Shown here one piece after another: positions 6,219 to 27,136 of a DNA stretch of 37,527 bases. Source of the stretch: Gemmatimonadota bacterium (GTDB taxonomy: Bacteria > Gemmatimonadota > Gemmatimonadetes > Palauibacterales > Palauibacteraceae); assembly GCA_022360695.1 (NCBI GenBank), contig JAKSCH010000050.1, positions 1-37,527 on the forward strand, in the 5' to 3' direction. The notes beneath the pieces are model-generated. The model was not told the DNA's origin and did no database searches. It saw nothing but the letters and a program-made list of their open reading frames with translations. Both the position numbers and the translations under genes were made by a program. The first letter of the stretch is position 1; each line of letters opens with the position of its first letter.

Positions 6219-6405
6219 CGGGTCGCGCCGTCCCGGTCGTCTCGATCGACCGGCCCGGCCTGGCGAGGTGGCCGGCGCAAGGGGGGCGTGCGGTCGATCC
6301 GTCGTCTCTCCTCCTCGAAGTAGGGCTGCCACTCCTTCGTCGTCGCTCCTAGGCCGAACCGCACGAGACCCTGCGCGCGATCCGCCGGGGTTCTTCCGCA
6401 GCCTG
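6219..6405. repeat. Degenerate copy of a palindromic intergenic repeat (related to 26838-27136)
   Basis: Segment from 6296 (GATCCGTCGTC.CTCCTCCTCG..GTAG.GCTGC..) aligns by eye with the right half of the 26838-27136 element from 27026; internal IR CGTGCGGT (6287-6294)/ACCGCACG (6358-6365). Confidence 0.55.
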
Positions 6406-10887: not shown

Positions 10888-11054
10888 CTAGTGGGGTGCA
10901 TCAAACGTCCCTTGCCATTCGAGCGGCGATGCATCCCGCTCGCCGGCGTTGCTCGATCTCGACGTAGCTATGGCTACGCCTTCGTTCTCGCGCCTTGGCG
11001 AGCGGGCGCCTCTCCACTCTCGGTGGTCAAGGGACGTTTGATGTACCACACTAG
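10888..11054. repeat. Palindromic repeat element with 27-bp terminal inverted repeats
   Basis: CTAGTGgGGTgCATCAAACGTCCCTTG (10888-10914) against CAAGGGACGTTTGATGtACCaCACTAG (11028-11054), 25/27 complementary; inner IR CCCGCTCGCC/GGCGAGCGGG (10935-10944/10997-11006); apical hairpin CGTAGC-TATG-GCTACG (10963-10978). Confidence 0.9.
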
Positions 11055-26331: not shown

Positions 26332-26849
26332 TCGAGGCCGTTCGTAGCGTGTGGCTGGTCGGCTTGTCGGGCTCCGGGAAGTCGACGACCGGTCCGCTGG
26401 TGGCCGATCGGATCGGGTTCGACTTCGTCGACCTCGATGCCCAGATCCAGCGGAAGACCGGCGAAACGATCCCTCAGATCTTCCGTACGGGCGGAGAGCC
26501 GCGGTTCCGCCGGCTGGAGGCCGCGGCGACGAGCGAGATCGCCACCCTGGCCGGCGTGGTCGTGGCGACGGGCGGAGGCTGGATGGCCCGGTCGGACGTG
26601 GAACGTGTCGGGGAGGGCCGCGTACGAGTTTGGTTGCGCGTCAGCCCGGAGGTCGCGATCCATCGGCTGGGCGACGGCGTCGGGAGCGGCCGACCGCTCC
26701 TCGACGCTCCGGACCCCGAGGCGGCGCTTACGGCGCTCTACCGGGCCCGAAAGCCGGCGTACGCCGAGGCGGAGCTGTCGGTCGAGACGGACGGTCGGTC
26801 GCCGGTTGAGGTTGCGGAGGAAGTCGTCCGGAGGTTAGAAGGGTGTTGA
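26328..26849 (+). CDS. aroK: Shikimate kinase
   Basis: Walker A GLSGSGKSTTG, FVDLDAQIQRKTG, FRRLEAAA, VVATGGGWM; overlaps aroC stop. Confidence 0.92.
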   Translation: MIEAVRSVWLVGLSGSGKSTTGPLVADRIGFDFVDLDAQIQRKTGETIPQIFRTGGEPRFRRLEAAATSEIATLAGVVVATGGGWMARSDVERVGEGRVRVWLRVSPEVAIHRLGDGVGSGRPLLDAPDPEAALTALYRARKPAYAEAELSVETDGRSPVEVAEEVVRRLEGC

Positions 26850-27136
26850 AGAAGTACGGCGGGTCGCGTTCCGAGCGCCACGGCCCCGGATCCGAGGCAG
26901 AACGGCGCAGGCATAGCCAAAGCTACGTCGAGCCGGTCGAACGACGGAGACGGGGCCGTGCCGCCGGAACCGGGCGGCACGGATGCCCGGGCAACGAGGT
27001 GAACGGCGCATGGGTGTCGCGGATTGATCCGTCGTCGTTCCTCCTCGCCGTAGCGCTGCTACGACTCGTCGTCTCTCCTTGCCTGAACCACGCGAGACCC
27101 ATGCGCGCGACCCGCCGTACTTCTTCAACACCCTTC
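26838..27136. repeat. 299-bp palindromic repeat element with perfect 31-bp terminal inverted repeats and internal hairpins
   Basis: GAAGGGTGTTGAAGAAGTACGGCGGGTCGCG (26838-26868) / CGCGACCCGCCGTACTTCTTCAACACCCTTC (27106-27136); internal CACGGCCCCG/CGGGGCCGTG, CCGTGCCGCC/GGCGGCACGG, CGTAGC-GCT-GCTACG (27049-27063). Confidence 0.93.

Follow-up and report, generated by a model that had tools for sequence, protein, structure and literature searches.

The 167-bp palindrome that precedes pilS at positions 10888 to 11054 of the window (the whole 37,527-nucleotide stretch of DNA that was analyzed) is probably a non-autonomous DNA transposon (MITE), one of a group that has a fold-back module in common and whose arms would be kept matched by template switching, by a need for symmetrical ends, or by both. 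This reading is based on precise, dispersed 167-bp copies with CTAG ends, on an IS630-family element with related ends, on a patchy distribution, and on a sister insert that is missing from relatives. Judging from the sequences compared, the interior module is reused in many phyla within elements that have unrelated transposon ends. The usual view of MITEs is that they are decayed insertion sequences and that their ends define them, whereas here the interior is conserved and the ends are exchangeable.

The 167-bp element and its copies

The element is an imperfect palindrome from end to end, with CTAG at each end and a core that is read on the minus strand. Its terminal arms, or inverted repeats, span 36 nt each (10888 to 10923 and 11019 to 11054) and are 83% complementary; the right one was delimited by arm pairing and copy alignment, and the left one has an IS630-type end, C-TA-G-TG(T)GGTG, when compared with the IS630 ends at locus L121. 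Further inside, a middle helix is formed by positions 10935 to 10944 (CCCGCTCGCC) and 10997 to 11006 (GGCGAGCGGG), which are 100% complementary, and the conserved 46-nt tip module occupies positions 10948 to 10993 on the minus strand. All 167 nt fold into one long hairpin centered on the GTAGC hairpin, with a free energy of -59.7 kcal/mol as DNA (z = -10.9) and -103.3 kcal/mol as RNA (z = -12.6), values that were equaled by no shuffled sequence. The terminal arms described in an earlier, sequence-only reading of this site are thus real, and they belong to a fold that runs the full length of the element.

That reading had also predicted a repeat family, and further copies were indeed found, both in other genomes and in the genome of origin, a member of the Gemmatimonadota, where there are about 57 unique ones, mostly 93 to 97% identical and with the same limits. 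R1, a covariance model built from the 46-nt core, matched 61 places in this genome, a 546-contig draft in which contigs often start or stop inside copies, so that double counts or misses are possible. The element is a likely main cause of the assembly breaks, with contigs such as C254, C332, C517 and C425 starting or stopping in copies. The family is patchy between relatives: none of the 15 genomes of the same genus that the survey sample lists had an R1 match, and 38 of 399 Gemmatimonadota genomes did.

Alignment of 20 copies with their flanks set the boundaries at CTAG (10888) and CTAG (11054), and the same precise limits, each bordering a 36-nt arm, recurred from copy to copy. CTAG was present at both borders of all two-ended copies, except for one end of one copy, which reads TTAG. 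A TA duplication and a 4-bp CTAG duplication would explain these borders equally well. IS630 has a preference for TA in CTAG, according to Tenzen and Ohtsubo (1991) as cited in PMC2170065, and we infer that the TA inside CTAG is the duplicated target. Since the first base of the element is G, a TAG stop is restored when it inserts into C-TA-G, and this would make harmless residence at gene ends possible. At 43 of the 82 distinct ends with a flank, the terminal TAG closes an open reading frame of at least 100 codons, compared to 34 and 22 of 82 when the other two frames are examined for a minimum of 100 open codons; there is hence an excess, yet over a background that is high in this GC-rich genome.

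The genome of origin also encodes an IS630-family transposase (NCBIfam IS630, 269 bits), within an element that has the ends CTAGTGTTCTGTCCCAGA and CTAGTGTCTTGTCCCAGA. A divergent copy of the palindrome, C217, harbors CTAGTGTCCTGTCTC at both ends, close to the ends of this IS630-family element, while the main type has no more than CTAGTGT in common with it. A search for an autonomous element bearing exactly CTAGTGTGGTGCATCAAA as its ends found none; the exact partner of the main type is missing from the draft, or lost. From these likenesses between ends, an IS630-type transposase acting in trans would be the enzyme that moves the 167-bp element.

At L121:380-2550 (G000:C426), a complete IS630-family element directly adjoins an IS5-family transposase gene, with a CTAG at the junction. 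The border of the IS5-family transposase beside IS630, TAGCAGGCTGCTGAAAAACT, resembles TAGAAGGCTGTTGAAGAAGT in 16 of 20 letters, compared by eye, the latter being the end used by Gemmatimonadota elements of the type found between aroK and topA. The name IS5-type for such ends is based on duplication length and on this resemblance, with no matched enzyme. Gene calls relied on a home-made score or on plain open frames.

A sister element between aroK and topA

The second element of the superfamily in the window is 299 bp long, has the ends GAAGGGTGTTGAAGAAGTACGGC and lies between aroK and topA (26838 to 27136, plus strand). It is an insertion: it is absent in five same-genus genomes, in which 76 to 100 bp separate residue 170 of aroK from topA, versus 353 bp in the window. 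The aroK stop codon is now supplied by the element. The aroK frame ends within the terminal repeat of the insert (26838 to 26849), and the last AroK residues are element encoded. This is the only case in which an insert was seen to be absent from relatives, and its ends differ from those of the 167-bp element; for the window copy of the latter, the flanks in same-genus genomes are too divergent for an empty-site comparison.

The two elements have the same tip (26897 to 26942, plus strand, in the aroK-topA element) inside different transposon-like ends. Both halves of the earlier observation, namely, a core that aligns with the region around 26900 to 26945 and arms that differ from those at 26838 to 27136, are in agreement with our results. 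BLAST aligned a 27-nt stretch of the two cores at 89% identity, and R1 scored 49.4 bits in the 167-bp element and 56.4 bits in the aroK-topA element, both being among the sequences used to build the model; the likeness is beyond chance.

Sequence comparison additionally identified a relic at 6264 to 6404 (plus strand), corresponding to the right half of an aroK-topA-type element with 77% identity, on the downstream side of a type II secretion F-like (pilC) gene. At 27044 to 27071 and in the 3' halves of the Gemmatimonadota elements of about 300 bp, there is another, smaller GTAGC hairpin (GCCGTAGC-GCTGCTACGACTC); it recurs in the longer elements as if two tips were carried.

The tip module within and beyond Gemmatimonadota

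The conserved tip consists of GGC(A/G)TAGC-loop-GCTACGTCGAG together with flanking internal-loop bases. Within the genome of origin, variation in the tip is six times lower than elsewhere in the element (0.005 versus 0.030), and 2 of 20 sites are variable in the tip, compared to 61 of 147 in the rest; between divergent copies of this genome, the 46-nt tip is about 90% identical. In a wider sampling, TAGC/GCTA, the C10-G pair and a GGC/GTC stem with a G-T (G-U) wobble (62 of 68 distinct sequences) were kept, and the loop was free, with 3 to 6 nt. The conserved center proposed from the sequence alone therefore holds for the stem and the internal-loop bases but not for the loop, CAWA, which is replaced by 3 to 6 variable nucleotides. 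This variation in loop length favors a folded strand over a duplex binding site with fixed spacing. A small coding region in the core was also discarded, given that no single frame is open across the aligned rows and that the loop varies in length. Outside the tip, an AAGGC block precedes the core in 15 of 28 genomes (shuffle mean, 2.1) and an AACG block follows it in 17 of 28 (shuffle mean, 3.8). The interior module is thus laid out as AAGGC ... GGC(A/G)TAGC-loop-GCTACGTCGAG ... AACG, with variable helices between the blocks.

The family proved wider than the sequence-only reading had recognized, its core crossing phyla. The tip is present in at least 10 phylum-level groups, and the pattern GGCRTAGCYAWAGCTACGTCGAG was found in at least 82 stretches of species genomes. 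Among the matches listed are Desulfarculaceae and other former deltaproteobacteria, Phycisphaerales and other Planctomycetota, Verrucomicrobia, Bacteroidota (Saprospiraceae), Gemmatimonadota, Acidobacteria/Thermoanaerobaculaceae, Lysobacterales, Campylobacterales, Fermentibacteria, Muiribacterium and Uhrbacteria. All records listed for this pattern are metagenome-assembled genomes; nevertheless, binning errors are unlikely to account for the distribution, given that the arms and the base composition vary from host to host and that a single-contig genome in the Gemmatimonadota sample (G069) also has a copy. Since the first cross-phylum search required the exact core, invariance inside the pattern is partly there by construction, a constraint that the model searches relax; in Planctomycetota, the model matched in 18 of 393 genomes (E ≤ 1e-4, the E-values being rough). 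A phage or plasmid origin was rejected, as the exact core did not occur in 2.9 million viral contigs, and phage and plasmid records gave no meaningful match.

Across phyla, the elements are MITE-like palindromes with the core near the center and the same long hairpin fold. Their length is about 150 to 185 bp in most groups, and those of Gemmatimonadota reach about 400 bp. The ends vary from genome to genome and in some cases within a genome: a Phycisphaerales genome has the ends GAGCCTATCC with TNA duplications, and other types include GGGAACCTCTAAAAA, TAGGCTCTGTTTACAAAA, TAGAAGCGGTTTCAAAAC and GTATCTTTAAAAAAG. No autonomous partner for the Phycisphaerales ends was found in that genome. Reasoning from ends to enzyme, other DDE transposases would move the module-bearing elements outside the genome of origin. 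Three sites in the Phycisphaerales genome (G400; L296, L303 and L305) hold only a 22- to 23-bp GAGCCTATCCTRATAATCGGCTC flanked by TTA/TAA. These footprints are consistent with loss of the palindrome between two GGCTC repeats, which would point to hairpin formation during DNA replication.

The Desulfarculaceae copies have no clear terminal repeat. At several of their loci (L128, L138, L139, L189 and others), the module has conserved flanks, ATGAAAAAA..GTTTGTACCC and ..TGAAATATSCGGGCTAR, and in some copies module and flanks form an open reading frame of about 66 codons. Small GC-rich palindromes such as GGGCACCCGCC..GGCGGGTC are located in the element loops of some copies only (L341, L342, L343, L236, L399 and L409), resembling a nested, insertion-like repeat.

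Paired arms, alternative explanations and known systems

The sequence-only reading had held that pairing, and not arm sequence, is maintained. This is supported by compensatory changes both within the genome of origin and across phyla, but the reading overlooked that the arms act as transposon ends, flanked by probable target duplications. C217 resembles the window copy most in the tip (91%), less in the interior (83%) and least in the arms (58%), and its own arms are nonetheless complementary at 26 of 28 positions (24 of 28 in another copy, C83). In 20 copies of the recent family, pair 12-156 is CG in 14, TA in 4 and AT in 2 and hence always paired, and pair 13-155 is AT in 17, GC in 2 and an unpaired AA in 1. 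Similarly, genome G116 has two copies that are near identical inside and have ends unrelated between the copies, each pair being symmetrical. For the inner helix across phyla, we counted 104 double-change cells, compared to 55.8 in shuffles (0 of 500 shuffles reached 104), and 75% of the cells were paired, versus at most 37% upon sliding.

Template switching between arms during replication produces compensation and maintains hairpins (PMC8794818), so compensatory change can arise without any selection for a folded RNA. By itself, arm covariation is compatible with three causes, namely, template switching, a transposase that requires symmetrical ends and selection on the folded strand, and does not tell them apart. 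It follows as a warning that covariation in such hairpins alone is no evidence of a functional RNA. We propose that the element, when single stranded (for instance, on the lagging strand), would fold end to end, and that template switching in replication, together with the need of the transposase for two alike ends, would copy a change in one arm to the other. The arms could then drift or be replaced in step, adapting to new transposases, while a structure-specific requirement, namely, a putative reader of the folded strand, would keep the tip constant. More tentatively, and with the odds rather against it, the elements may form a superfamily defined by the conserved tip and not by ends or transposase, in which the tip would be read as single-stranded DNA or RNA by widespread cellular machinery and the module would be carried across phyla by IS630-, IS5- and other transposases, both ends being rewritten at once by template switching. 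That the interior is conserved and the ends are exchangeable leads to a question open to experiment, namely, what reads the tip, and the elements are a natural system in which to ask whether template switching keeps the two arms of a transposon matched.

The tip could instead be a structured RNA that rides on MITEs, either a small RNA or an mRNA 3'-end element binding a protein or RNase, with arms that covary through selection on the RNA fold. We consider this improbable, though it is the best placed of the alternatives. The conserved internal-loop bases and the G-U wobble lie inside covarying helices, the RNA fold is very stable, and the elements are frequently located at gene 3' ends. However, relative to the gene reading into the element, orientation is unbiased (18 sense and 17 antisense), which argues against a simple cis-acting role in host mRNAs, and in other phyla the counts were 20 for +/+ versus 12 for -/-. 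Neither the element nor its core had an Rfam 15 family at or above the gathering score, a match to MIR3454 being far below the cutoff and a hairpin artifact. No sigma-70-like promoter was found in the window copy, for which the sequence-only reading had allowed a possible effect on pilSR expression; the sole terminator-like site there, a consensus match, is the tip itself. Arm covariation, finally, is also produced by template switching.

Far less probable still is an identity as REP/REPIN-type palindromes, mobilized by a RAYT-like tyrosine transposase with the tip as its recognition site. GTAG and CGTC strings do occur in the core, and the genome of origin has one weak Y1_Tnp-like open reading frame (28.2 bits), but no copy of the element was found on the contig that holds it (C310), and GTAG is paired in the central stem of 150- to 400-bp elements with terminal repeats and DDE-typical duplications. 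We rejected a REP/RAYT identity on size (167 bp), tag position and gene association, no RAYT gene flanked by the repeat having been found. The least credible alternative is that of unrelated, ordinary MITEs in which a short palindromic core arose by convergence or chance: strict conservation covers no more than about 25 nt, and it is partly ascertained because the cross-genome pattern search required it, but reversed-pattern controls gave 7 and 4 matches versus 60 in the genome of origin, model E-values reached 1e-13 per genome, bases outside the pattern (the A before GGC, C10 and the AAGGC and AACG blocks) are conserved as well, and the elements are alike in size, central core position and fold.

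A literal sequence search of the searchable literature found no paper with the tip module. Several known systems are similar in part. With IS630/Tc1-mariner insertion sequences, the present element has in common the CTAGTGT end and a probable TA target within CTAG, but it encodes no transposase and its interior is unrelated to the insertion sequence. The MITEs with large hairpins described in Thiomargarita (PMC4853749) also form hairpins across the genome, with no common core reported, the comparison being by description. REPs tagged with GTAG or CGTC and associated with RAYTs are likewise palindromic repeats present in several phyla with such strings; unlike the present elements, they are 20 to 40 bp long, bear their tag unpaired at one end (PMC3733652), depend on a Y1 transposase and lack terminal repeats and DDE-type duplications. 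Similar in build are RUP, Correia/NEMIS and ERIC, non-autonomous palindromes of 100 to 200 bp with terminal repeats, TA duplications, a mostly intergenic location and long-hairpin transcripts (PMC2229807), of which RUP in Streptococcus pneumoniae has been proposed to move by IS630-Spn1. Like the present elements, these are small non-autonomous palindromes with terminal repeats. However, going by their descriptions, each is confined to a genus or a few relatives and keeps its own ends, whereas the module described here is found in many phyla with interchangeable ends.
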